DNA of 64,000 nucleotides, from positions 6,572,001 to 6,636,000 of the forward strand of contig NZ_CP045096.1 of the NCBI RefSeq assembly GCF_009184865.1, read 5' to 3'. The notes beneath the pieces are model-generated. The model was not told the origin of the DNA and ran no database searches. It worked only from the letters and a program-made list of their open reading frames with translations. The stretch comes from Streptomyces phaeolivaceus (GTDB lineage: Bacteria; Actinomycetota; Actinomycetes; Streptomycetales; Streptomycetaceae). This document shows, piece after piece, positions 13,965-26,790 of the stretch (its first letter is position 1; every line of letters starts with the position of its first letter). Made by a program: the position numbers and the translations under genes.

Positions 13965-14003
13965 ACTGTCCAGGCCTTGTCCGGCACTGTCCAGCTTGTC
14001 CGG
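13965..14003. promoter_or_regulatory. Four phased TGTCC boxes between divergent regulators
   Basis: TGTCC occurs at 13967, 13978, 13988 and 13997, that is 11, 10 and 9 nt apart, about one per helical turn. The arrangement is a near-duplication of CTGTCCAG plus CTTGTCCGG. It sits between the divergent ATPase and XRE genes, so it is a likely operator for the XRE protein. Confidence 0.55.
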
Positions 14004-14059
14004 AACCGGCGTACGGGTAGGGGGCGTTGAGTCACATCGGTACGGCGGAGAGGTGCGTG

Positions 14060-14923
14060 ATGCACGCGGACGGGCTCAAAGGCGCTACGGACGAGCCGGG
14101 TTGGGAGGTCGACCCCGACGACGACTGGGGTGTCGCGGTCGTCGAGACGGTGGGGCGACAACTGAAGCTGAGGCGTGAGGCCGTCGGGATGCGGGTGGCG
14201 GACTTCGCGCTGGCGATCGGGTACGGCGAGGACCTCGTCTACAAGATCGAGGCCGGGAAGCGGATTCCCCGGCAGGAGTATCTGGACAAGTCCGACGAGG
14301 TGTTGGACGCGGGCGGGCTCATCTCGGCGACCTGGGAGGACGTGAAGAAGGTCCGGTACCCGAAGAAGGTGCGGGAGCTGGGGAAGCTGGAGGGGCAGGC
14401 GGTTGAGATCGGGGGGTACGAGTGCAACATCATCGCCGGGTTGTTGCAGACGCCGGAGCATGCCAGGGCGGCGATCGAGGCGGCGCAGCCCCCGTACTCG
14501 CAGGACGATGTGGACCGGATGGTGGCTGGCCGCATGGCTCGGCAATCCGTCTTCGAGCGTGACCCCGGGCCTGCCATCAGTTTTGTGCTGGAAGAGGCGC
14601 CGCTGAGGCGTCCTCTTGGGGGCACAATGGTGTGGCGACGGCAACTTGAACGCCTACTGGAGGTCGGTCGGTTGAGGAACGTCACGCTTCAGGTGATGCC
14701 GACGCACCGCGAGGTCCACTCCGGCCTGGACGGACGGATCGAGCTGCTGAAGTTCGCGGATGGTACGGCGGTGGGACGCTGCGATGGCGTGTTCAACGGG
14801 CGCCCTGTCACTGACCTCAAGCGGCTCCGCGTCCTTGAACTGCAATATGGCACCATCCGAGCGCAGGCCCTCCCGCCTGGGGAGTCGCTGGCCTTCATCG
14901 AGCAACTGCTGGGAGAGACATGA
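14060..14923 (+). CDS. XRE-family regulator with DUF5753 (WhiJ-like)
   Basis: A 287-residue protein. The helix-turn-helix lies at about residues 30-90 (LRREAVGMRVADFALAIGYGEDLVYKIEAGKR). The DUF5753 region occupies the rest (YECNIIAGLLQTPEHARA, RMARQSVF, LQVMPTHREVHSGLDGRI). The ATG at 14060 is chosen because GGAGAGG (14047-14053) is 6 nt upstream; TTG 14027 and GTG 14057 are in frame. It overlaps the DUF397 gene by 4 nt. Such WhiJ-like/DUF397 pairs are abundant in Streptomyces, affect development or antibiotics, and have been described as toxin-antitoxin-like. Confidence 0.9.
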   Translation: MHADGLKGATDEPGWEVDPDDDWGVAVVETVGRQLKLRREAVGMRVADFALAIGYGEDLVYKIEAGKRIPRQEYLDKSDEVLDAGGLISATWEDVKKVRYPKKVRELGKLEGQAVEIGGYECNIIAGLLQTPEHARAAIEAAQPPYSQDDVDRMVAGRMARQSVFERDPGPAISFVLEEAPLRRPLGGTMVWRRQLERLLEVGRLRNVTLQVMPTHREVHSGLDGRIELLKFADGTAVGRCDGVFNGRPVTDLKRLRVLELQYGTIRAQALPPGESLAFIEQLLGET

Positions 14924-15129
14924 TGCGCAAGACCCTCGCCGGGGACGCCTCCGAACTGGCGTGGTTCAAGAGCAGCTATAGCGGTGGCAACAACGGCGAA
15001 TCCTGCGTCGAGATCGCCCACACCCCCGCCACCGTCCACATCCGCGACTCCAAGGACATACGCCTCCCTCAGCTCACACTCGCACCGTCCGCCTGGTCGG
15101 ACTTCGTCTCGTACGCGGCCGGGGGCTGA
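14920..15129 (+). CDS. DUF397 small protein
   Basis: A 69-residue DUF397 protein with the usual core WFKSSYSGGNNGESCVEIA, then VHIRDSKD and WSDFVSYA. ATG codons at 14920 and 14923 are both possible behind GGGAGAG. The start overlaps the XRE stop, so it is the partner of that regulator. Its 3' end overlaps the convergent GHKL-nuclease gene by 61 nt. Confidence 0.92.
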   Translation: MMRKTLAGDASELAWFKSSYSGGNNGESCVEIAHTPATVHIRDSKDIRLPQLTLAPSAWSDFVSYAAGG

Positions 15130-17141
15130 CCGTCCCTGCGGGCAGTCGGGATCGTGCCGTCGGCGACCAGTTCCGCCACGGCGTCGCCGTGGTTGCGGAC
15201 CAGGTAGTCCATGGCGTGTTCGGTGGAGGACTGGTACTCCAACTGCTGGCCGTAGAAGCGGAGCCGGGTCTCGCAGTCCTGGACGAGTTCGCCCCAGGTG
15301 CGTACCCAGATCCGGTACGTCGGCTGGTTGAGGGCGCAGCCGGGGGGATTGTGGGGTTGGTGGGACAGCTCCCGGAGCGTGTCCGTCATGTCGTTGCCGA
15401 TCAGCCAGAAGTCCCATGTCGTGCGGGTGTCCCGGAAGCGGTCGTCCTTGCGGACGGCCTGTGCGTAGCTGCTGAGCTGCTCGAACTCGGCCGAGCCCAG
15501 GACGAGGCCGGGGCGTTTGAGTTCGACCACGAGATGGTGCCGTTCGTCGTGTCGGTGACGGGACGCGCGGGACAGCATGAGGTCGACGATTCCGCGGCGC
15601 CCGTCGGGCCGGAGCACGGGTGGGCTCGTGGGTTCCTCGCGGCCGAGCAGGTGGCAGTGCTGCCGCAGGACCTCGTTGAGGCTCCGATCGCTGACATGCA
15701 GACCGTATTCCTCGCCGAAGATCCAGCACTCGTTCTCCAGCATCCGGTGGAGTTCGGAGCGTTCCTTCACGCGGTTCTTGGCCTCGGGGTCGAAGACGAG
15801 GTGCTCCAGGGCCGCCAGGAAGTCCAGTCGACTGGTCGCGGCCGTCGATGCCTTGACCAGCGCTGACAAGGGGGTGCGGTCGAGGAGCCGGTTGAGCTGT
15901 TCCCGTTCCTGCTTGGAGAGGTTGAACAACTCCTCGGCGATCCGCAGCACGTCCGAGGGCTCATGTGCGAGGACGGACCGAAGCAGGGCGAACGTGGTCC
16001 TGCGTGTTCCGGTGGACCTGGGCAGGTGACGGAAGACGGTCGTGGCCACCGCGTCGAACGTCTCGCGTTCGGTTCGTTCGCGTGCGCCGGCGGGTTGCCC
16101 GGCGTACGGGTAGATGCCTTCCCGACGCCATTCCGCGACCTGTTCCCGCCGTCGTTCGTCCGCGCGGGCCCGGAAGTGGGCCTTGAGTTGGTCACGAGCC
16201 GAGGCGAGCACTTCGGTGAGGGGTCCGGAGGCGGCCCAGTCGGTGAAGGCGAGGTCCTCGGAGTCGACATCGTCGAAACCGGACCAGCTGAGATGTGCCG
16301 TGAACTCGAAACCCGGGGCCTGGATGCCGGGCTTGAGCTGGGCTCGCGACATGGCTTCCCCGTCGCAGAGGAAGAGTGCGCGGGTGACGGGGCGGCGCCA
16401 TTCGACCACCTTCAGCCGCGCGGGGTCGCCGTTCCGGTCGGCGGGGGAGGGCAGGACGTAGTCGCGGACGTGCGCCTGCTCGGCGGCCGGGTCGAGGTCC
16501 TGGCCGTCGTACTCGATCCGGACGTCCGGATACTTCTCCAGGTACGTGGCGAATGCCGTGGTGAGCGATGACCTGGCGCGCTCGTCGGCCAGGACGCTCA
16601 ACTGCTCGTCCCCGCCGAACGCCTCGAAGAGCGTGCCGACGGGGTCCTCGGTGGGTTCCGGGTCGCCGATGTCGAACTCGTCCATGGAACGCCGGTCCGC
16701 CTCTATCACCAACTGCTGCCGCCCCCCGAGCGCGTCGCTGACGCTGGTCCAGCGCACCTGGGTGCCGAGTGCGAAGGCGCGTACCCGGCCTCGTCCGTTC
16801 TTGCCGTGCAGGGCCCGCTTCTTCACGGGGCTGCCCTGCGCCCGCTTCTTCCAGGAGGCGCCGATCGGCCGGAAATACTCCTCGCAGTGCTCTGCCGACA
16901 TCCCGCTGCCGTCGTCCTGGACGCGGACCCTGTCCACGCCGCCCAGGTCGTTGCGTTCCAGGGCGATGACCACGTGCCCGGCGTCGGCGTCGGCGCTGTT
17001 CCAGATCAGCTCCTCCACCGCGCCGATCGGATCACGCAGCCGCGCCAGCTCGGCGACGTGCTCCCGGCTGGTCTCCAACCGCACCTTCACCATGACTTGG
17101 GCTTCTCCCCGTCGCAGTCGTACGTCCCTGATCGAGAGCAC
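15069..17141 (-). CDS. GHKL ATPase fused to PD-(D/E)XK nuclease (candidate defence effector)
   Basis: A 690-residue protein. The N-terminus is a GHKL (Hsp90/MutL/MORC-type) ATPase: N-box EELIWNSADADA (E44, N48), QDDGSGM (76-81) and a glycine-rich lid LHGKNGRGR (111-119). The C-terminus has a restriction-fold nuclease pattern: LENECWIFG (468-476), then IVDLML with D520, VVELK with E540 and K542, and a following FEQLSSYA helix, resembling DUF4263/Shedu-type domains. The middle (about 300-450) is helical. GTG 17141 is used; ATG 17093 would remove 16 residues. Prokaryotic MORC-like ATPases are often tied to nucleases in restriction or defence. The function here is inferred from the domains. Confidence 0.8.
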   Translation of the reverse strand: MLSIRDVRLRRGEAQVMVKVRLETSREHVAELARLRDPIGAVEELIWNSADADAGHVVIALERNDLGGVDRVRVQDDGSGMSAEHCEEYFRPIGASWKKRAQGSPVKKRALHGKNGRGRVRAFALGTQVRWTSVSDALGGRQQLVIEADRRSMDEFDIGDPEPTEDPVGTLFEAFGGDEQLSVLADERARSSLTTAFATYLEKYPDVRIEYDGQDLDPAAEQAHVRDYVLPSPADRNGDPARLKVVEWRRPVTRALFLCDGEAMSRAQLKPGIQAPGFEFTAHLSWSGFDDVDSEDLAFTDWAASGPLTEVLASARDQLKAHFRARADERRREQVAEWRREGIYPYAGQPAGARERTERETFDAVATTVFRHLPRSTGTRRTTFALLRSVLAHEPSDVLRIAEELFNLSKQEREQLNRLLDRTPLSALVKASTAATSRLDFLAALEHLVFDPEAKNRVKERSELHRMLENECWIFGEEYGLHVSDRSLNEVLRQHCHLLGREEPTSPPVLRPDGRRGIVDLMLSRASRHRHDERHHLVVELKRPGLVLGSAEFEQLSSYAQAVRKDDRFRDTRTTWDFWLIGNDMTDTLRELSHQPHNPPGCALNQPTYRIWVRTWGELVQDCETRLRFYGQQLEYQSSTEHAMDYLVRNHGDAVAELVADGTIPTARRDGQPPAAYETKSDQADGASVS

Positions 17142-17241
17142 AGTTTGCCCTTTCCAGGGTGTTTGACGTGTGGAATCGCCGCATGATCACCCTTGGTACT
17201 CTGCCGCCTCTGGATATGGGCATCTGTTCGAAGAGGTGTGA

Positions 17242-18069
17242 ATGAAGACAGGTAGACGAACCGTCGCGGTGGCCGCGCTCGTGGGGGCGCTCGGGCTTTC
17301 GGTGCTGAACGCGCCGACGGCTCAGGCGGCGGACACCGGTATCACCGTGTCGGACATCGTCATCAACAAGGGCAAGCCGATTGTGGTGGGCACGACGAAG
17401 GAGGTGCGGCCGTCCGTCACCTTCAACATCGCTTTGCCGGCCGGGCTCAGCACCGCGAACCCCTCCGGCTACACCGCGCATCCCTTCACCTACCGCGGTG
17501 ATCTGAGGAAGGCCGTCGACACCGGGGCCGGCTACATAGGCCCGGGTATCTACACCTGCTTCGAGGTCGACGCCAGGCACGCCCGATGCGAGGGCGAGTT
17601 CCACATCGACCCGCACTGGAGCCGGAAGCAGGTCGACACCAACAGCGCCGCCACGACCTGGAAGACCGCCGTCGTGATGCGCCTGTGGAAGGCCAGCGGT
17701 GGTCTCAAGACCGAAGAGTACGAGACCCGGTCCAAGACCGTGCAGCTCAAGCGCGCGGCCAAGGCGACCGTGGGCGCCACCCCGGAGACGGTCACCAAGG
17801 GCAAGAAGATCACGGTCACGGGCAAGCTGACCCGGGCGAACTGGAGCACCAAGAAGTACGGCGGCTACAGCGGCCGTACGGTGAGCCTCCAGTACCGCGC
17901 CTCGGACGCCACCTCGTTCAAGACGGTCAAGAAGGTCACCACCAGCAGCACCGGCGGCCTCAAGACCACGGTCAACGCCTCCGCCGACGGCTTCTACCGC
18001 TGGGTGTACTACGGCAACACCACGACCGGCACCGCCACCAGCCCGGTGGCCTACGTCGACGTGCGCTGA
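17242..18069 (+). CDS. Secreted protein with C-terminal Ig-like domain
   Basis: A 275-residue exported protein. The signal peptide is about residues 1-29 (MKTGRRTVAVAALVGALGLS, ending NAPTAQA). The C-terminal 90 residues (VTKGKKITVTGKLTR, SGRTVSLQYRAS, FKTVKKVTTSSTGGLKTTV) form a beta-rich domain seen on many streptomycete secreted proteins. The N-terminal half is unrecognised and has one cysteine pair (YTCFEV, ARCEGEF). AGAGGT precedes the ATG at 17242. It ends 5 nt before the convergent RNA-processing gene. Confidence 0.75.
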   Translation: MKTGRRTVAVAALVGALGLSVLNAPTAQAADTGITVSDIVINKGKPIVVGTTKEVRPSVTFNIALPAGLSTANPSGYTAHPFTYRGDLRKAVDTGAGYIGPGIYTCFEVDARHARCEGEFHIDPHWSRKQVDTNSAATTWKTAVVMRLWKASGGLKTEEYETRSKTVQLKRAAKATVGATPETVTKGKKITVTGKLTRANWSTKKYGGYSGRTVSLQYRASDATSFKTVKKVTTSSTGGLKTTVNASADGFYRWVYYGNTTTGTATSPVAYVDVR

Positions 18070-18074
18070 CCGCC

Positions 18075-20891
18075 TCAGTACAGGCTCGGCACCTCGCCGC
18101 CCTCGGCCTTTGTCAGCGTGACTCCCGGCAAGCCGCGCAGCCGACGCTCCGCCACGGCGGTCAGGTCGGCCGCGGTCGGTGGGGTTCGGCCCAGGCCGAT
18201 GGCGTAGCGCGTGGGGCCCGGGGCCGTGGTGAAGGGGCGGGGCCAGGCGTGGCAGTCGGGGGACAGGTCAGCGAGGTCCGTGATCAGGGCCCGCATCCTG
18301 CCGCGTACCCGGCCCCGATCCGCTTCCGTGGCTCCGTCCGCGCCCCCCTCCACCGTCACGATCGCCCACGCGGCGTGGCGGCGGTGGAGTGGGGGAGGGG
18401 TGAGGAGGGCGGGCAGGGGGCTCCCCTCTTCCAGCAACTCCCAGGCCCGGAACAGCTCTTGGGTGATCAGGTCGCGCATACCCGCCGTCACCTGGTCCGT
18501 GCAGGGGCGGACCGGAGCCGAGGGGGTCGTGATGGTGAGGGGGAGGGGGAGGGTGAGGGTGAGGGGGAGGGGACCGGAGGCGTCCCCGGGCGGTCCCACC
18601 GGCTCTCGCCAGTCCCATGCCGCCCAGGTCGCGAAGAAGTGCCGGAGGAGGGCGGACGGTGGCAGGTCACCGGCCTCGCTCGCCGTGCGGGCCGCCAGGA
18701 CCGACCACGCCAGGCCCGGCAGGCCGCCGAACGGTGCCGAGTCCAGGCCCCGCGCCCTCGCCCACGCCTTGACCTCCCGGGCCAGCCGTGCGAACGCCGG
18801 ACCATGGCCGCCCGCCGAGGCGAGCACCGCCTCCGCGTCGCTCACCGCGCTGAGCGCGATCGCCGCCGCCTCACCCAGCTCGGCCCGCCGCGCCACCGCC
18901 TCCGACGGATCCATCGACCCGGTGGCCACCACCGTCAGATCCACATCCAGCCCGTCCAGCCGCAGCCGTACACCGGGTACGCGTGCGCCGATCACCTCGC
19001 GCACGTTCGCGGCCCCGCCCGTCGCTTCCCTCAACTCCAGCTGTACGGCGGCCAGTTCGACCACCCCCGGCAGCGCCGCCACCAGGTCCAGATCCGCACC
19101 GGGCAGCGCGCAGCCCATGCGCCGGGAACCGACCACGTGGACGACACCGGTGGGGAGCGCGTCCGTGAGGAGGCGGGTGATCCGGTCGGCCGGTTCCGTG
19201 TCGGCGGCCTCACGCCCGGGGTGCGCGGCCTCCTCCCGCCACCGCACCTCTCCCGTCCCCAGAGCCACCGTCCCCCTCACCCGCATCGGCTCGTCCCCGC
19301 GCCGTGACAGCAGGGCCAGCTCGCCGACCTTCGCCGACATGGGCCCGAGCCGGGCAGCGCAGGCCGCCGCCAGGGTGTTCGGGTCGGTGGTGCGGCCCAG
19401 GCTCAGATGCGGGGTGAAGCCCTCGTGGCGGCCCCGACAGTGCGGGAAACGGCGTACGAGGGTGTCGTGCAGCTCGGCCCAGGGCCCCTCGCCGGCCGCC
19501 GCCGGGTCCAGCCACACCGTCGCGTCGTCCCGGTGCCCGAACCAGTGCACGCCCTCCAGCCGGGCGTCGAAGGGAGCCACCTCGGCCGTCGCGAGCACCG
19601 TGGCCGCCTCCTCGAACGCGTGCTCCGGTACGAAGCCGAAGAGGACGTTCACATGCGGGGGCCAGCGGTCGATCCGAGGGTCGTGCTTCCGGCGGATGTC
19701 CTGGAGCGGCGGCCACAGCTCCTCGGGCGGCAGCCACGCCAGCGCCGTACGGGCGGTCGGCCTGACGTCGAGGCCGGCGGGGGCGCTGTCCGGGGTGTCG
19801 GGCCCCAGCTCCACCCGCACCCCGTAGTGGTCCGAGATGTACAGCCCCTCCGCCGTGGGCGCGTCCCCGTACAGCTCGGCCGACCGCACCCCGAGATCCC
19901 GCCCGCGCAACAGAACCCGGTCCAGCCTCGACGCCCGTCCGGACAGGGACGAGATCGCGGCCAGCGGGTTGGCGGGCGGGTCGAAGGTCGGTGTCATGTC
20001 CTGCGGGCCGCGCGCCTCGCTCCACGCGTCCCGCATGCCCAGCGCCGTCTGCGGGGTGTCGCCGCCGTCGTTGAAGTCGCCGAGGAGGAGCAGATCGGCG
20101 TCCAGGCCCGCCAATCCCTCGGCGATACGGGACAGTTCGGCCGTACGGCGACCCGAGCCGTCGGCCGAGTGGTCGCTGCTCAGATGCGTCGCCGCCACGA
20201 CCAGGGGGCGTACGCCGGTCTCCACCACCACGGCCGTCACCGCCTTGTGCGGGCCCAGCGCGTGGAACGCGGCCTCGCGGACCGGCAACCGGCTCAGGAG
20301 CAGCAGCCCGCATGTGTCGACGTCCCGCCCGCGCGGGTCCGTGCCCAGTGTCCAGCTCTCCCGCAGCCACGGCTCGCGCAGCAGTAGGGACAGCAGCTCC
20401 GCCTCGACCTCCTGCAACGCGATCACGTCCGCGTCGGCCGCCCGCAGGGCCCGCAGCAGCAACGGTCTGCGCCGGGCGGTGTCGATGAGATCGGCGTCGT
20501 AGCGGTCCCAGAGGGTGTTCCAGGTCAGCACCCGGACGGGCTCGGCGGCGGCCCCTCGCGGTGAGCCGGGCGCGGGCGCCCAACCCTCGCCGTCCCACGC
20601 GTGCGGCGTGCGCGCCGTGAAGAACGGCGCCCGGAGCAGGAGCGCCTCCCGTACCCGCCCCGCCTCCGTCGCGTCCATCCGGTCCACCCCCGTGGCCCGG
20701 TCCCAGACCACCTCGCCGTCCGCCTCGAAGAACAGCACCCGGTGCCAGGGGATCTCGCCGCCCGGCACGAACGCGGGCAGCGGGACCCGCTTGGGCGCGG
20801 CGTTCCGCTGGAGGACGCCCAGCACGAAGCGCGCCGGGTCGAAGCGCGTGTCCCAGCGCACCCGGTGATAGATCTCCTCGCTCGTCCGCAT
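18075..20891 (-). CDS. Multidomain RNA end-processing protein: DUF504, EEP, 2H phosphoesterase, poly(A) polymerase
   Basis: A 938-residue fusion. Residues 5-72 match DUF504/MJ1316 ([19 protein letters not shown]). Residues 118-362 are an endonuclease/exonuclease/phosphatase domain (WNTLWD, LQEVE E161, GDFND, SDH 353-355). Residues 385-545 are a 2H phosphoesterase (HVNVLFGF H413, HLSLGR H495). Residues 575-760 are a nucleotidyltransferase with GS 588-589, D600, D602 and LDVD near 649-651. A eukaryotic-type poly(A) polymerase central region follows ([40 protein letters not shown]), with a C-terminal RNA-binding-like part. It lies 32 nt downstream of the RNA ligase-kinase gene and is probably co-transcribed. 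Likely role: trimming, healing or tailing RNA ends. Confidence 0.85.
18534..18569 (-). repeat. Hexanucleotide repeat in the poly(A) polymerase linker
   Basis: Six consecutive GGTGAG or GGGGAG units (plus strand) encode a Leu-Pro/Leu-Thr linker just before the segment TITTPSAP, where poly(A) polymerase passes from its central to its RNA-binding domain. Confidence 0.85.
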
Positions 20892-20923
20892 GGTTCTTCA
20901 GCCTTCTTCCTCGGCCCTGGTCC

Positions 20924-22618
20924 TCAGACCTCGTCCTCGATGGTTCCGCTCGGTCCGACGTACCAGGTGCGGTGCGCGTCCCCCGGGTACGGCGGGGCGA
21001 AGCGGCGCAGCTGCGCGGTGAGCACCTCGGGCGGTACCGCGTGCTCACGGCGGGTGTTGCGGCGGATCAGCTCGTCCTCGGCGACCAGGACCACGGCGTG
21101 CGTGATCAGGGCGTTGCGGCGGTGCGCGACCGCGTGCACCAGCGAGCGCTGCCGATGCGTGAGCGAGGTGGCGTCCCAGACCGTCGTCCCGGCGGCGGCC
21201 AGCGCCCCGTCCAGCCGGTCGAGCCCCTCGCGCAGGACGTCCGCGTTGGCCCGCTGATCGGCCCGCGCCCCGCGAGCCTCGCGCAGCTCGTCCAACGAGA
21301 CATACGTGTCCACGCCCCCGAGGCCCCGTGCGAACGCGCTCTTGCCGCTGCCCGCCGGGCCGACCAGCTGGACCAGCCTCGGGAAGGCCCCCGACCGCCA
21401 GCGCCAGGTCGCGGCGACGGCCCCGTCGACACCCCCGACGCGCCCCCGCGCGTACGCCTCCCGCGCCTCCGCCCGGCAGCGGACGGCCGCGTCCGCCGAC
21501 AGCCCGGCGAACGCCTCCCGCAACGCGCCCTCGTCCAGCGGCGCCACCTCTTCCGCGTGCAGCGCCGACCACTCCACCTGCTCCCGCGCCTCGTCCGTCG
21601 TCGCCGTGGCCCGCGCCACCGCGTGCAGCGGACCGAGACCGGCGGCCAGGGACAGCCGGGCCAGGCCCGCCCGGCGGTCCTCGTCCGGATACGGCCGGTG
21701 CAGCATGGGGTGCAGCCCCACCAGATCGGCGACCCGGCGCGCGAGCGGCATGCCCACGACCCCGGCCAGCCGCGCCGCGAGCCGCGCCCGCCGGCCACCC
21801 TGGCCGCCGTCCCGGCCATGGCCGTGCAGCAGCGCGGCCAGGACACCGACGAGCCGGTCGTCCCCGGTCGCCCCCGCCGGATCGAAGCGGGCCACGGCTT
21901 CCCGGTCGCCCTCCCCGGGCAGCCCCACGGCCCCCGCCAGCGCGTCGGCGTCGGCGGGCGCGCCGGAGCGCACGGCCCACAGCGGCGCCCGCGCGCCCAG
22001 CCCGTTCTCCACCACGGGCGCGTGCATCCAGTGCGTGTCCGTCCGTACGTGCCCGGCCCGCACCCACTTCGCGACGCGCGCGCCGAACTCCCGCGCGTCG
22101 AAGCCGTCCACGACCCGGACGACGTACCCCTCCTGGCGGCCGAGATCCAGCCGCAGCGCGCGCAGCGCCCGCTCGTCGAACACGCCCCGCCACAGCACAC
22201 GCGGCACGGGCACCCCGAGACCGCGCAGAAAGGCCACCGTCCGGTCCCAGTCCAGGCAGCGGCGCTCCCCGTCCCACACCGAGAAGCCGTAGAACCAGCT
22301 GTCCAGGTCGTCGTAGGCGAGCGAGTGCCGGGCGAACATGTTCTCCCCGCACACCCGCCAGCCCGCCGGCACGGCGTGGCCGACACGGGCCTGGAGCGCC
22401 TTGACCCAGGTACGGGAGGGGTGGTGCGCGGAGTCGAGTGAGCGGGCGTGCACGCCGTCGGCGTACAGCGTGGTGTTCTCGCCGTCGAGCTTCTCCGTCA
22501 CCACGACCTCGCGACCGCGCAGGCCGGACAGATCGGTGACCCGCAGATCGTCGGCGGTGGCGCCCGGGGACCACGGCAGATGCCTGGTCCGCGGATAGTG
22601 CGTACGCGTCGTGCCCAT
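20924..22618 (-). CDS. RNA ligase fused to polynucleotide kinase
   Basis: A 564-residue protein. The N-terminal third is an Rnl2-type RNA ligase: nucleotidyl-lysine motif EKLDGEN (K43), WFYGFSVWD (108-116), EGYVVR (163-168) and AKWVR (K184). The C-terminal third is a P-loop polynucleotide kinase: GPAGSGKS (420-427), SLDELR and WDATSLTHRQR. The middle (about 205-400) is unrecognised. It would phosphorylate 5' ends and join RNA strands. The gene downstream carries 3'-end processing domains, so the pair looks like a complete RNA repair system. ATG at 22618. Confidence 0.9.
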   Translation of the reverse strand: MGTTRTHYPRTRHLPWSPGATADDLRVTDLSGLRGREVVVTEKLDGENTTLYADGVHARSLDSAHHPSRTWVKALQARVGHAVPAGWRVCGENMFARHSLAYDDLDSWFYGFSVWDGERRCLDWDRTVAFLRGLGVPVPRVLWRGVFDERALRALRLDLGRQEGYVVRVVDGFDAREFGARVAKWVRAGHVRTDTHWMHAPVVENGLGARAPLWAVRSGAPADADALAGAVGLPGEGDREAVARFDPAGATGDDRLVGVLAALLHGHGRDGGQGGRRARLAARLAGVVGMPLARRVADLVGLHPMLHRPYPDEDRRAGLARLSLAAGLGPLHAVARATATTDEAREQVEWSALHAEEVAPLDEGALREAFAGLSADAAVRCRAEAREAYARGRVGGVDGAVAATWRWRSGAFPRLVQLVGPAGSGKSAFARGLGGVDTYVSLDELREARGARADQRANADVLREGLDRLDGALAAAGTTVWDATSLTHRQRSLVHAVAHRRNALITHAVVLVAEDELIRRNTRREHAVPPEVLTAQLRRFAPPYPGDAHRTWYVGPSGTIEDEV

Positions 22619-22730
22619 CGTGAACGTCCCCCGTGCCGGCCGGCGTACCCGAACAGCCGACGAACCTGATCAGCGTAGGAGCGCGGGCCGGTGACGGGCG
22701 AGCGGATTACCCGGCGCTTAGGGTCCCGGT

Positions 22731-23447
22731 ATGAAGCCCAGAGCGGGCGTCGGGCTCACCTCGGTCATGGTGGCGCTCACGCTGACGACCGGCATGATCG
22801 AGGCCGTCAGCTTTCTCGTGCTCGGACCGGTGTTCACCGCCGTGCAGACCGGGAACCTGCTCTTCCTCTCCTTCGCGCTCACCGGCGCCGCCGGTCTCTC
22901 CCCGGCCGCTGCCGGTGTCTCGTTCGCCGCGTTCGCGGTCGGCGCGGTGCTCGGCTCCCGGTTCGAGTCGGGCGTGGACGCGTACGGCCGCGACTGGTTC
23001 GGGCCCGCGCTGATCGTCGAGGCGCTGCTGCTGGGGCTCGGCGGCCTGGTCGCCTGGCGCGGCGGCGTCGACATGTCCGGCTTCCCGGCGGAGGACCCGC
23101 ACTACGCCGTGGTCGCCCTGGTCGCCGCGGCCATGGGGGTCCGCAATGTCACCACCCTGCGGGCGCGTGTCGCGGACGTCCCCACCACGGTCTCCACCCG
23201 CGCCCTCACCGCCTTCCTCAGCGGCCTGCCCCCGCTCCCCGACACCCGCGTCGGGGCACGCTCCGGCGACGAGGGCCGCCGCCTCGCCTCGGTCGGCGCG
23301 ATGTTCGCGGGAGGCCTGCTGGGCGCCTGGCTCCTCCACGAGGACGTGCACCCGGCGGTCGTCCTGCTGCTCCCCGCCCTGCTGGTGCTGCTCCTGGGCA
23401 CGGCCCACTGGGCGGCGCCGCGACGGCGTACGTCGGAGCCGGGCTGA
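22731..23447 (+). CDS. DUF1275 (YoaK-like) membrane protein
   Basis: A 238-residue integral membrane protein with about six spans. The family signature VSFLVLGPVFTAVQTGNLLFLSF is near the start, and RNVTTLRARVADVPTTVSTR follows in the second half. The transported substrate, if any, is unknown for the family. It is divergent from the RNA ligase gene (112-nt gap) and precedes the S10 operon promoter. Confidence 0.9.
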   Translation: MKPRAGVGLTSVMVALTLTTGMIEAVSFLVLGPVFTAVQTGNLLFLSFALTGAAGLSPAAAGVSFAAFAVGAVLGSRFESGVDAYGRDWFGPALIVEALLLGLGGLVAWRGGVDMSGFPAEDPHYAVVALVAAAMGVRNVTTLRARVADVPTTVSTRALTAFLSGLPPLPDTRVGARSGDEGRRLASVGAMFAGGLLGAWLLHEDVHPAVVLLLPALLVLLLGTAHWAAPRRRTSEPG

Positions 23448-23482
23448 GGAGCCGAGCGGTCACCCGCCCCCGAGTGCCGGGT

Positions 23483-23510
23483 TTGACCTCCGTCACTCTC
23501 GGGGTAATCT
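23483..23510 (+). promoter_or_regulatory. S10 operon promoter (HrdB-type)
   Basis: TTGACC (23483-23488) and TAATCT (23505-23510) are 16 nt apart, the best vegetative match before rpsJ. It implies a transcript start near 23517. Confidence 0.7.
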
Positions 23511-23772
23511 CTCCGGCTCGATTGGCGGAGCCGGTGGGCCGTATGGCAGACTAGCGGGGTTGCTCGGTCGAGTGTTGATGCTGCGCGCCTCCCGCCGGGA
23601 GGACCGGAAGCGAGTCCCACAGTACTCGTCGCCCCAACTGTCAGATGGCAGCGCTGGGGCGGACGTACGGGAATCTTTCGGGAAGCAAGGTGCGGCACAG
23701 ACCAGGCGCCCGGTGAGTCTCTTTCTCAGGCAAGGGATGTTCGAACAAGGGACATCTGTGTCAGTGAAAGCG

Positions 23773-23797
23773 CGACACGCCCGACCGCGTGGGTCGG
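23773..23797 (+). promoter_or_regulatory. Conserved r-protein leader hairpin, copy 2 (rpsJ)
   Basis: CCGACC (23781-23786), loop GCGTG and GGTCGG (23792-23797) are preceded by CGACACGC. It is identical to the element before rpsL at 24 of 25 positions and ends 61 nt before the rpsJ start. Confidence 0.6.
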
Positions 23798-23858
23798 AGT
23801 GAGACGTCAGGAACACCGGGTTCCAGAGCGTTACGAGACAAAGGACTACTGAGTAGCC

Positions 23859-24167
23859 ATGGCGGGACAGAAGATCCGCATCCGGCTCAAGGCCTACGAC
23901 CACGAGGTCATCGACTCCTCGGCGAAGAAGATCGTCGAGACGGTGACCCGCACTGGTGCGTCGGTCGCGGGCCCGGTGCCGCTGCCCACTGAGAAGAACG
24001 TGTACTGCGTCATCAAGTCGCCGCACAAGTACAAGGACTCGCGCGAGCACTTCGAGATGCGCACGCACAAGCGCCTGATCGACATCCTCGACCCGACCCC
24101 CAAGACCGTTGACTCTCTGATGCGACTCGACCTCCCGGCCGGTGTCGACATCGAGATCAAGCTCTAG
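23859..24167 (+). CDS. rpsJ: 30S ribosomal protein S10
   Basis: A 102-residue S10 ([19 protein letters not shown]), complete. S10 is part of the 30S head and, as NusE, joins the transcription antitermination complex. It is the first gene of the S10 operon behind a long leader. Its start follows a weak GAGTAGCC; the rplC gene follows after 17 nt. Confidence 0.98.
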
Positions 24168-24184
24168 GGATCGGTGATCTGAGA

Positions 24185-24829
24185 ATGGCTAAGCAGATCA
24201 AGGGAATCCTGGGCGAGAAGCTCGGCATGACGCAGGTGTGGGACGAGAACAACCGTGTTGTTCCGGTCACCGTCGTCAAGGCCGGCCCCAACGTCGTGAC
24301 CCAGGTCCGTACGAACGATGTCGACGGCTACGAGTCGGTCCAGATCGCCTTCGGCGAGATCGACCCGCGCAAGGTGAACAAGCCCCTCAAGGGTCACTTC
24401 GCCAAGGCCGACGTCACCCCCCGCCGTCACCTCGTCGAGATCCGCACCGCGGACGCCTCCGAGTACACGCTGGGCCAGGAGATCTCCGCCGAGGTCTTCG
24501 AGGCCGGCGTCAAGGTGGACGTGACCGGCAAGAGCAAGGGCAAGGGCTTCGCCGGTGTCATGAAGCGTCACAACTTCAAGGGCCTCGGCGCCGGTCACGG
24601 CACCCAGCGCAAGCACCGCTCCCCCGGTTCCATCGGTGGCTGCGCCACCCCGGGCCGTGTGTTCAAGGGCCTCCGCATGGCGGGCCGCATGGGCAACGAG
24701 CGGGTCACCACCCAGAACCTGACCGTCCACGCCGTTGACGCGGAGAAGGGTCTGCTGCTCATCAAGGGCGCCGTCCCCGGTCCGAACGGCGGCCTCGTCC
24801 TGGTCCGCACCGCGGCCAAGGGGGCCTGA
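24185..24829 (+). CDS. rplC: 50S ribosomal protein L3
   Basis: A 214-residue L3 with the typical start [19 protein letters not shown] and the conserved [21 protein letters not shown] loop reaching toward the peptidyl-transferase centre. Second gene of the S10 operon; rplD starts 7 nt after the stop. Confidence 0.98.
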
Positions 24830-24836
24830 GGTACCG

Positions 24837-25496
24837 ATGAGCACTGTTGACATCCTTTCGCCTGCAGGCGAGAAGACCGGAAGCGTCGAGCTCCCCGCGG
24901 AGATCTTCGGCGTGGAGAAGGTCAGCATCCCGCTGATCCACCAGGTCGTCGTCGCGCAGAACGCGGCTGCCCGTCAGGGCACGCACAAGACCAAGACCCG
25001 CGGCGAAGTCCGTGGTGGCGGTAAGAAGCCTTACCGGCAGAAGGGCACCGGCCGCGCCCGTCAGGGCTCGACCCGCGCGCCCCAGTTCGCCGGCGGTGGC
25101 GTCGTCCACGGCCCGCAGCCGCGTGACTACTCGCAGCGGACCCCGAAGAAGATGAAGGCCGCGGCCCTGCGCCACGCCCTCACCGACCGGGCCCGTCACA
25201 ACCGCATCCACGTCGTCTCCGGCGTGATCGAGGGCGAGAACCCCTCCACCAAGGCCGCCAAGTCGCTGTTCGGCAAGATCTCGGAGCGCAAGAACCTGCT
25301 CCTGGTCGTCGAGCGCGCCGACGAGGCCGCGTGGCTCTCCGCCCGCAACCTGCCCCAGGTGCACATCCTGGAGCCGGGCCAGCTGAACACGTACGACGTG
25401 ATCGTCTCCGACGATGTGGTCTTCACCCAGGGTGCCCTGGAGTCCTTCGTGTCCGGCCCGAACAAGGCCAACGACACCGAAGGGAGCGAGGCCTGA
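24837..25496 (+). CDS. rplD: 50S ribosomal protein L4
   Basis: A 219-residue L4. The ATG at 24837 gives [20 protein letters not shown]; a longer frame into rplC is not real. The extended loop is present ([20 protein letters not shown]). In gamma-proteobacteria L4 represses this operon through its leader, and whether it does so here is unknown. Its stop overlaps the rplW start by 1 nt. Confidence 0.97.
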
Positions 25497-25915
25497 TGGC
25501 TACGCGTCACCCGAGCATCGCCTCCAAGGCGGCCAAGGCCGCCAAGGCCGCGCGCGTCGCCAAGGCGAAGCGCCACGCCACCGAGGGCAAGAACACCGTC
25601 GTCACCGCGCCCAGCAAGGCGTTCACGGACCCCCGTGACGTGCTGCTGAAGCCGGTCGTGTCGGAGAAGAGCTACGCGCTCCTCGACGAGGGCAAGTACA
25701 CCTTCATCGTCGCCCCCGGCGCCAACAAGACCCAGATCAAGCAGGCCGTCCAGGCGGTCTTCTCGGTCAAGGTCACCGGGGTCAACACGATCAACCGCAT
25801 CGGCAAGCGCAAGCGCACCAAGACCGGTTTCGGTCAGCGTGCCGGCTCCAAGCGCGCCATCGTGACCCTTGCCGAGGGCGACCGTATCGACATCTTCGGC
25901 GGTCCGACCGCGTAA
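25496..25915 (+). CDS. rplW: 50S ribosomal protein L23 with Lys/Ala-rich N-terminus
   Basis: A 139-residue L23. The core ([20 protein letters not shown] onward) is standard and sits at the exit tunnel, where it contacts trigger factor and SRP. About 40 residues at the N-terminus ([18 protein letters not shown]) are a basic low-complexity extension beyond the usual family length. The start overlaps the rplD stop (TGATG). Confidence 0.97.
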
Positions 25916-25953
25916 GCGGGTCGGATCGTCCGATATCGGACGAGGACTGAGAA

Positions 25954-26790
25954 ATGGGAATCCGCAAGTACAAGCCGACTACGCCGGGCCGTCGTGGCTC
26001 CAGCGTCGCCGACTTCGTCGAGATCACGCGGTCCACGCCGGAGAAGTCGCTGGTCCGCCCGCTGCACAGCAAGGGCGGCCGTAACAACGCCGGTCGTGTG
26101 ACCGTTCGCCACCAGGGTGGCGGACACAAGCGCGCCTACCGTGTCATCGACTTCCGTCGTCACGACAAGGACGGCGTGCCGGCGAAGGTCGCGCACATCG
26201 AGTACGACCCCAACCGCACCGCGCGCATCGCGCTGCTGCACTACGCGGACGGCGAGAAGCGCTACATCCTCGCCCCGCGCAACCTGCAGCAGGGCGACCG
26301 CGTGGAGAACGGTCCCGGGGCCGACATCAAGCCGGGCAACAACCTGGCGCTCCGCAACATCCCGGTCGGTACCACGATCCACGCGATCGAGCTCCGTCCC
26401 GGTGGCGGCGCCAAGTTCGCCCGCTCCGCCGGTACCTCCGTGCAGCTGCTCGCGAAGGAGGGCGCCTACGCCCACCTCCGCATGCCGTCCGGTGAGATCC
26501 GCCTGGTCGACGTGCGCTGCCGCGCCACCGTCGGCGAGGTCGGCAACGCCGAGCAGAGCAACATCAACTGGGGCAAGGCCGGCCGCAAGCGCTGGCTGGG
26601 CGTCCGCCCGACCGTTCGCGGTGTGGCGATGAACCCGGTTGACCACCCCCACGGTGGTGGTGAGGGCAAGACCTCCGGTGGTCGCCACCCGGTCAGCCCC
26701 TGGGGTCAGAAGGAGGGTCGTACTCGCTCGCCGAAGAAGGCTTCGAGCAAGTACATCGTCCGCCGCCGCAAGACGAACAAGAAGCGCTAG
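25954..26790 (+). CDS. rplB: 50S ribosomal protein L2
   Basis: A 278-residue L2, complete, with [11 protein letters not shown] containing the conserved histidine near the peptidyl-transferase centre. L2 is needed for subunit joining. It follows rplW by 38 nt and precedes rpsS. Confidence 0.98.

Follow-up and report, generated by a model that had tools for sequence, protein, structure and literature searches.

RNA repair systems of jumbo phages and bacteria combine a ligase, a kinase, phosphoesterases and a nucleotidyltransferase; ATP-grasp ligases need a 5'-P and a 3'-OH, kinase and phosphoesterases prepare these ends, and a nucleotidyltransferase restores bases (PMC7824862). Here we describe a cassette of this kind in Streptomyces phaeolivaceus, within a window (the whole stretch analyzed) of 64,000 nucleotides on contig NZ_CP045096.1 (positions 6,572,001 to 6,636,000), to which all coordinates below refer. 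It consists of two adjacent open reading frames (ORFs) of 564 and 938 amino acids on the minus strand, 32 nt apart, exactly as in an original prediction made from the sequence. Gene 1 (P0002, 20924..22618) encodes an RNA ligase, a middle region and a polynucleotide kinase, and gene 2 (P0001, 18075..20891) an MJ1316-EEP-2H-nucleotidyltransferase-poly(A) polymerase (PAP) protein; most relatives overlap or abut at the position of the gap (20892..20923). The cassette fits the published syntax of repair systems (PMC7824862); we read it as an RNA-repair system, and consider it probable from the domain content that the two proteins heal and seal endonuclease-cleaved RNA with 5'-OH and 2',3'-cyclic phosphate ends.

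Database searches at E<=1e-3 returned 1364 proteins for gene 1 and 1281 for gene 2, each among 8000 scored candidates, and the best 120 were listed. The resulting alignments (154 rows for gene 1 and 156 for gene 2) comprised the window protein, the stop-free loci fetched from relatives and 119 further database matches among those listed per search. The closest named matches of both genes were from Streptomyces, and the catalytic residues of both proteins were near-invariant across the 154-156 aligned sequences. Pfam and family profiles confirmed the domains that the original prediction had assigned to both genes, and the profiles it had named (PF04457, PF03372, 2H, PF04928 and PF09414) all matched; so strong a set of matches lies well outside what chance would give.

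The Rnl2-type ligase domain of gene 1 (residues 1-215, 21974..22618) matched RNA_ligase (PF09414) at 7e-34 over residues 36-186, as well as phrog_34045 (no function given, 1.5e-73) and phrog_24030 (RNA ligase, 3.9e-55). K43 of its K43-x-D-G-E-N motif was invariant in a 45-row alignment, and so were D45, G46, N48, R59, E92, E163, G164 and K184; this domain is thus predicted to be an ATP-grasp RNA ligase with an intact lysine motif. At the other end of the protein, the P-loop domain (residues 406-564, 20927..21403; GPAGSGKS) matched AAA_33 (PF13671) at 3.9e-18 over residues 415-543, with G420, P421 and G423-S427 invariant in the same 45 rows, so that both the ligase lysine and the kinase P-loop are intact, as had been proposed. 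D443 and R446 of the D443-x-x-R446 motif, and R520/R524, were kept in the 154-row and 45-row alignments. The 45-row profile matched the chains 4jst/4gp6 (5.5e-9), titled "Metallophosphoesterase", which we take to be the kinase of Clostridium thermocellum Pnkp, and 1ly1 (6.6e-6), titled "polynucleotide kinase", which presumably is that of T4. Assuming for these residues the roles known from T4 Pnk (P-loop, general-base Asp), a 5'-OH polynucleotide kinase activity is predicted; Pfam found no 3'-phosphatase domain attached to it. The middle region (residues 216-405, 21404..21973) belongs to no recognised family, since Pfam at E<=1 was empty and a PDB-profile search gave no credible match, and it is 42-78% identical in the best matches of the fetched relatives. 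All the domains of the cassette are under purifying selection: Nei-Gojobori dN/dS against two relatives was 0.13-0.47 in every domain of both genes (rough values, given the strong GC bias), with 0.13 and 0.19 for the ligase, 0.36 and 0.29 for the middle region and 0.19 and 0.26 for MJ1316.

Gene 2 begins with the MJ1316/DUF504 domain (residues 1-95, 20607..20891; PF04457 at 8.8e-19 over residues 1-65), described as recognising RNA 2'-3' cyclic ends, a predicted role (PMC6514570). In the EEP nuclease/phosphatase domain (residues 117-360, 19812..20543), residues 122-355 matched Exo_endo_phos (PF03372) at 1.5e-19, and a 63-row table displayed N125, E161, H236, D272, N274 and D324 in all domain-bearing rows and D354 and H355 in all of them except P0344. 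The 2H phosphoesterase domain (residues 373-556, 19224..19775) matched 2_5_RNA_ligase2 (PF13563) above cut-off (1.3e-31, residues 388-534). Its H413 and H495 were found in 152 of 156 rows, the remaining four being without the domain, and its motifs read H-x-N (motif 1, 150/152 domain-bearing rows) and H-x-S/T (motif 2, 151/152). With these conserved residues, the EEP and 2H domains are candidates for removing a cyclic or linear 3' phosphate.

The rear half of gene 2 contains a pol-beta nucleotidyltransferase palm (residues 573-701, 18789..19175; GS, D600-x-D602, D651), at the front of which PAP profile matches start (positions 571-589), and the PAP central and C-terminal region (residues 702-938, 18075..18788, stop codon included), delimited by PF04928 and by alignment to 4lt6 and 1f5a. 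PAP_central (PF04928) matched residues 700-816 above cut-off (6.1e-9), and the palm was sub-threshold in Pfam (MTPAP-like, 2.5e-5; NTP_transf_2, 0.033). A 67-row profile of gene 2 matched PAP gamma (4lt6) at 6.6e-35 over profile positions 588-894 and, from the palm into the C-terminal region, 1f5a (7.7e-27) and 2hhp (3.1e-24), which we take to be the bovine and yeast PAPs. Since the PAP gamma match runs across both, likeness to PAP extends over the palm and into a part of the C-terminal region. D600, D602 and D651 were present in all rows of the 63-row table spanning the palm except L059. A Tyr of PAP, presumably a residue of the nucleotide-binding site, aligns with position 717, which was Asp in all rows but that of Calothrix (Tyr). 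The claim of a eukaryotic-type PAP therefore stands for the palm, central and C-terminal match, where PAP_central and the pol-beta triad of the canonical class are found, and fails at the nucleotide-site Tyr; owing to D717, poly(A) specificity is unproven. The RlaP-type family was not among the six Pfam families listed for gene 2 at E<=1. Relatives were already labelled "poly(A) polymerase" or "RNA repair domain-containing protein" in NCBI and UniRef. Two further observations concern this half: a short hexamer-type repeat at 18534-18572, within the PAP coding region, encodes a Pro/Leu/Thr-rich stretch; and a stand-alone 378-aa PAP (P0298) is labelled Chondromyces apiculatus on a 15.6-kb contig, where contamination is possible, a genome scan with it having returned only actinomycete loci.

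The two genes form a near-obligate pair in Streptomyces. In a sample of 150 genomes including that of the window, counted from match ranges with few candidates scored per genome (five for gene 2), the PAP half of gene 2 was found in 31 and gene 1 in 31; both were present in 30, gene 2 alone in one (G085), gene 1 alone in one (G050, an 82% complete genome with gene 1 truncated at a contig edge) and neither in 118 (Fisher p 3e-29, a value that ignores shared ancestry). We fetched 36 loci (L042-L077), from 24 of the 30 other Streptomyces genomes with the PAP half and from 12 new genomes of the class. At least part of both genes was present in 35 of them, the ligase gene being only partial in L060 and L065. 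The intergenic distance in these 35 loci, estimated from match ends and estimated start codons, had a median of -1 nt (22 negative, one zero, largest 163), and stop and start overlapped or abutted in 23; in a separate contig scan, the ligase-kinase gene was directly upstream of gene 2 in 14 of 18 loci. These results show that the pairing is operon-like, and they bear out its predicted conservation in relatives. Clustering of neighbours in 37 loci (the fetched ones plus the window, most neighbours being without annotation) disclosed no third gene common to all insertion sites. The commonest were a zinc alcohol dehydrogenase (10 loci), S10-operon genes (9) and a short-chain dehydrogenase (6), with PIG-L, F5/8 type C and NUDIX proteins in five loci or fewer each (one member per family scanned). 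A third operon partner such as the zinc alcohol dehydrogenase was discarded because no neighbour family spans all sites; the most recurrent neighbours mark insertion sites. A few damaged copies were seen. The ligase gene of G101 (L047, near 9730) is interrupted immediately ahead of its kinase part, by a frameshift or an error of assembly; that of G012 (L060) is split on contig C1, residues 3-331 being encoded around 8.84 Mb and residues 334-563 around 6.01 Mb, which looks like breakage by rearrangement, gene 2 being an open frame there; and all that was found of the cassette in G047 (L081, near 9097) is a remnant of 32 residues from the N-terminus of the ligase (72% identity).

The cassette is accessory, being present in 31/150 Streptomyces genomes, at several sites, in other families and on a cyanobacterial plasmid. 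Beyond Streptomyces, where counts are lower bounds, the PAP half was found in 14 of 345 genomes of the class (two candidates scored per genome), six of them in another family, and PAP_central in 5 of 396 genomes of the phylum (three above cut-off) and in none of 14 controls. The separate contig scan yielded its 18 gene 2 loci in Streptomyces, Kitasatospora, Catellatospora, Dactylosporangium, Actinoallomurus and Actinophytocola. A Calothrix brevissima plasmid typed as conjugative encodes a 991-aa MJ1316-EEP-2H-PAP protein (L100:7995-10970) that is 31% identical to gene 2 over 81%, with a stronger PAP_central match (1.7e-29) and more PAP-like residues. Neither Kitasatospora nor the second family stays together in the tree of gene 2, a pattern compatible with transfer. 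A phage origin of gene 2 was rejected, since neither a phage collection (E<=1e-5) nor a scan of viral contigs with the Calothrix protein (10 pattern matches, zero relatives) contained a relative; the ligase domain does have relatives in jumbo phages (XacN1, Ccr phages), with 38-52% identity among the 20 best of 32 records. The original prediction had taken the position beside the S10 operon as a sign of a stable chromosomal role. However, rpsJ/rplC lay within the fetched stretch (mostly 17-25 kb; L065 shortened by the contig end) of just 9 of the 37 loci, which makes the S10 neighbourhood one insertion site among several, and this, the patchy presence and the repeated deletion suggested by trees led us to abandon an S10-linked housekeeping role.

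Several relatives have lost parts of the cassette. By match ranges, 2H is absent in 5 of the 31 PAP-half genomes (G070, G075, G094, G116 and G147), so that the need for all five activities is unproven. As the four fetched 2H-less rows form one clade (SH-aLRT 96, quick method) inside a 10-row clade (99) that includes the window and other S10-adjacent loci, the loss looks like a single event. No separate 2H match was found among the five candidates scored in each of these genomes, a depth at which supply in trans is not excluded. At least six of the 120 PAP-region matches listed combined MJ1316, EEP and PAP with no call for 2H, although some may be truncated, and P0344, also without a 2H call, lacks the palm as well. 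Conversely, 2H-type matches outside the PAP-bearing gene were found in 30/150 Streptomyces genomes, and 10 of these also had MJ1316 as a separate match. Short MJ1316-2H proteins were nested among long gene 2 proteins in at least two places of a 62-row tree with nine short rows; three changes were counted, two of them forced by well-supported branches, and the S10-adjacent short rows L078 and L108 grouped with S10-adjacent long rows with support of 89/91, short of the star threshold and from a bootstrap that had not settled. The short proteins are probably deletion derivatives of gene 2, and the trees suggest that the cassette was reduced by deletion more than once. Solo MJ1316-2H genes (L078, L106, L108, L110, L111 and others) stand in varied contexts, 3 of 13 loci (L078, L108 and L110) being beside S10-operon genes. 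In G085, the genome without any gene 1 match, the nucleotidyltransferase triad is broken (D602N, and G at D651 beside an insertion), which supports the coupling of both genes.

In the repair mechanism that we favor, MJ1316 would dock on the cyclic end, 2H would open the ring to a phosphomonoester, EEP would remove the phosphate left by 2H, and the PAP-type nucleotidyltransferase would replace the nucleotides missing from the 3' end; the kinase would then phosphorylate the 5'-OH and the Rnl2-type ligase would seal the 3'-OH to the 5'-P. We infer the individual reactions, their order, the nucleotide identity and the RNA substrate, which most likely would be tRNA cut by toxins or defence nucleases. 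The division of labour supports repair, because the kinase of gene 1 comes without a 3'-phosphatase domain and EEP and 2H lie in gene 2. In the 2H-less relatives, EEP would perform both steps; one human EEP enzyme, ANGEL2, converts an RNA 2',3'-cyclic phosphate into a diol (PMC13247085), which would explain how 2H could become dispensable. At sequence level, the repair reading of the original prediction is supported, and none of the contrary outcomes that it had named (undetected 2H or PAP regions, loss of the ligase lysine or kinase P-loop, or a pair not conserved in relatives) was found.

Some observations weigh against this mechanism. Against solved structures, the family profile of the EEP domain ranked TDP2 first (2.3e-8), before a sphingomyelinase-type EEP (9.6e-5) and CCR4-like proteins (0.051). 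TDP2 is a 5'-adduct hydrolase, and a CCR4/ANGEL ancestry was discarded on this ranking, ANGEL2 being kept as a functional precedent. The first 2H motif is HxN instead of HxS/T. The chain of activities is not indivisible, because 2H was lost in one clade and kept with MJ1316 alone in others. All four Catellatospora genomes keep gene 2 and its triad with no detectable gene 1 relative, and no ligase, middle or kinase match was found within about 8 kb of the Calothrix plasmid copy, so that gene 2 can exist without the gene 1 ligase and may have a role of its own. Finally, relatives of RtcB and KptA/Tpt1 are already present in the host. Its genome has one match to each of these two and one to the bacterial PolyA_pol family, so that the cassette comes on top of all three, gene 2 being the single PAP_central match.

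We regard it as unlikely that gene 2 serves RNA 3'-tailing, freeing blocked 3' ends and adding decay-marking tails with gene 1 as an auxiliary. Its canonical PAP architecture and the Catellatospora genomes would suit such a role, as would the statement in PMC5872136 that Streptomyces lack PAP I yet have tailed RNAs, the evidence that PNPase does the tailing being only indirect. However, a PAP half limited to 31/150 Streptomyces genomes cannot be the general tailing enzyme, and the near-perfect linkage to the ligase-kinase is against it.

Nor does it seem likely that the cassette trims, adds and seals in the manner of an editosome, with EEP as a 3' exonuclease, the nucleotidyltransferase adding nucleotides and the Rnl2-type ligase joining junctions that are changed on purpose. 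An EEP exonuclease, a terminal nucleotidyltransferase and an Rnl2-family ligase are indeed the catalytic set of the kinetoplastid editosome, and an editosome-type set is what remains after 2H loss. The editosome has exoUases, TUTase and ligases (PMC12936278), the editing enzymes REX1/REX2 bear EEP domains (PMC1525001) and the editing ligase is an Rnl2-family member (PMC4599027). Yet an Rfam scan for structured RNA around the two genes (window 14000-26000) gave zero families at gathering score; no third gene is shared between sites (no search for endonucleases was made among the neighbours); the 5'-kinase and MJ1316 point to 5'-OH/cyclic ends; and EEP is nearest to TDP2 in a comparison limited to solved structures. 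A bolder version, in which the cassette is a self-contained RNA-remodelling machine with an editosome-like core that would rewrite 3' ends before sealing, its nucleotidyltransferase being a bacterial branch of eukaryotic PAPs with altered nucleotide choice, we hold to be improbable.

We think equally little of a module dedicated to immunity or to countering toxins, which would form an accessory island and serve in phage or inter-bacterial conflict, although it would be compatible with RNA repair as its biological purpose. The patchy distribution over several insertion sites, the copy on the conjugative-type plasmid and the ligase domain of jumbo phages speak for it. Against it, PADLOC gave no convincing match (none for gene 2, SspC at 0.094 for gene 1, limit 0.1), no phage record carried gene 2, and the clustered neighbours of relatives were without toxin annotation. 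A known anti-phage defence system was discarded, PADLOC having no match under 0.09 for either protein. That a TDP2-like EEP clears RNA 5' ends of peptide or other adducts, with the remaining cassette re-joining the RNA, is very improbable. The TDP2 chains, as its best solved relatives, speak for it; against it, their ranking is by sequence profile, and the domain is fused to two 3'-cyclic-end domains, MJ1316 and 2H.

Two neighbouring genes were also noted. A 275-aa ORF convergent with gene 2 (17242-18069, plus strand), without Pfam match, has an N-terminus that looks secreted, and a relative of it adjoins the cassette in L042. The other, possibly a defence gene, encodes a 690-aa protein (15069-17141, minus strand): its N-terminus holds a GHKL/HSP90-like ATPase (PF13589, 4.4e-16), PADLOC matched it weakly with a model of type II restriction (5.1e-5), and its C-terminus shows, by eye, a motif of the PD-(D/E)XK-like kind.

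If the repair reading is true, about a fifth of Streptomyces species bear a one-operon RNA-healing kit with a eukaryote-type terminal transferase, and nucleotides are restored by a route other than RlaP. The cassette bears on whether, in nature, EEP can take over from a 2H cyclic phosphodiesterase, as the 2H-less relatives might show, and on which nucleotide is added by a PAP with a Tyr-to-Asp change. It also bears on whether some members of a genus said to lack PAP I (PMC5872136) have a dedicated PAP-type tailing enzyme; an enzyme present in about a fifth of the sampled Streptomyces is relevant to tailing and not a general answer. A possible use is as a compact reagent for joining RNase-cleaved RNA.

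A literature search found no title or abstract start that described the gene pair. An earlier survey of repair systems, Burroughs and Aravind 2016, reportedly deals with MJ1316 and may include this architecture, and for this reason we rate the cassette as a variant within a known kind of repair system, the one that combines ligase, kinase, phosphoesterase and nucleotidyltransferase. Its kinase is related to those of both the T4 Pnkp/Rnl and the Clostridium thermocellum Pnkp/Hen1/Rnl systems, and its ligase falls in Pfam RNA_ligase; unlike in T4 and C. thermocellum Pnkp, no HAD or metallophosphatase was found by Pfam on the kinase. Membership in the C. thermocellum type was rejected, since gene 1 scored 36.3 bits with TIGR04075 (cut-off 750), and Pfam found no Hen1 domain in either protein. 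The small MJ1316-2H proteins of Streptomyces are 72-80% identical to gene 2 in MJ1316 and 51-66% in 2H matches, whereas gene 2 also has EEP and the nucleotidyltransferase. The jumbo-phage relatives of the ligase domain are stand-alone Rnl2-family ligases, that of XacN1 being a 216-aa protein with the ligase only. Eukaryotic nuclear PAPs (PAP gamma, PAP alpha, Pla1 and others) align with gene 2 in the palm, central and C-terminal regions and share D-x-D...D; gene 2 differs from them in its fusion to MJ1316-EEP-2H and in D717, where the Calothrix relative keeps the Tyr. With the repair systems of jumbo phages and bacteria (PMC7824862), the cassette shares the predicted activities and the operonic logic. 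It departs from them in that its nucleotidyltransferase is of the canonical PAP type and not RlaP, in that its phosphatase candidate is an EEP domain where phages typically have HAD, and in that all the activities are packed into two multidomain proteins.

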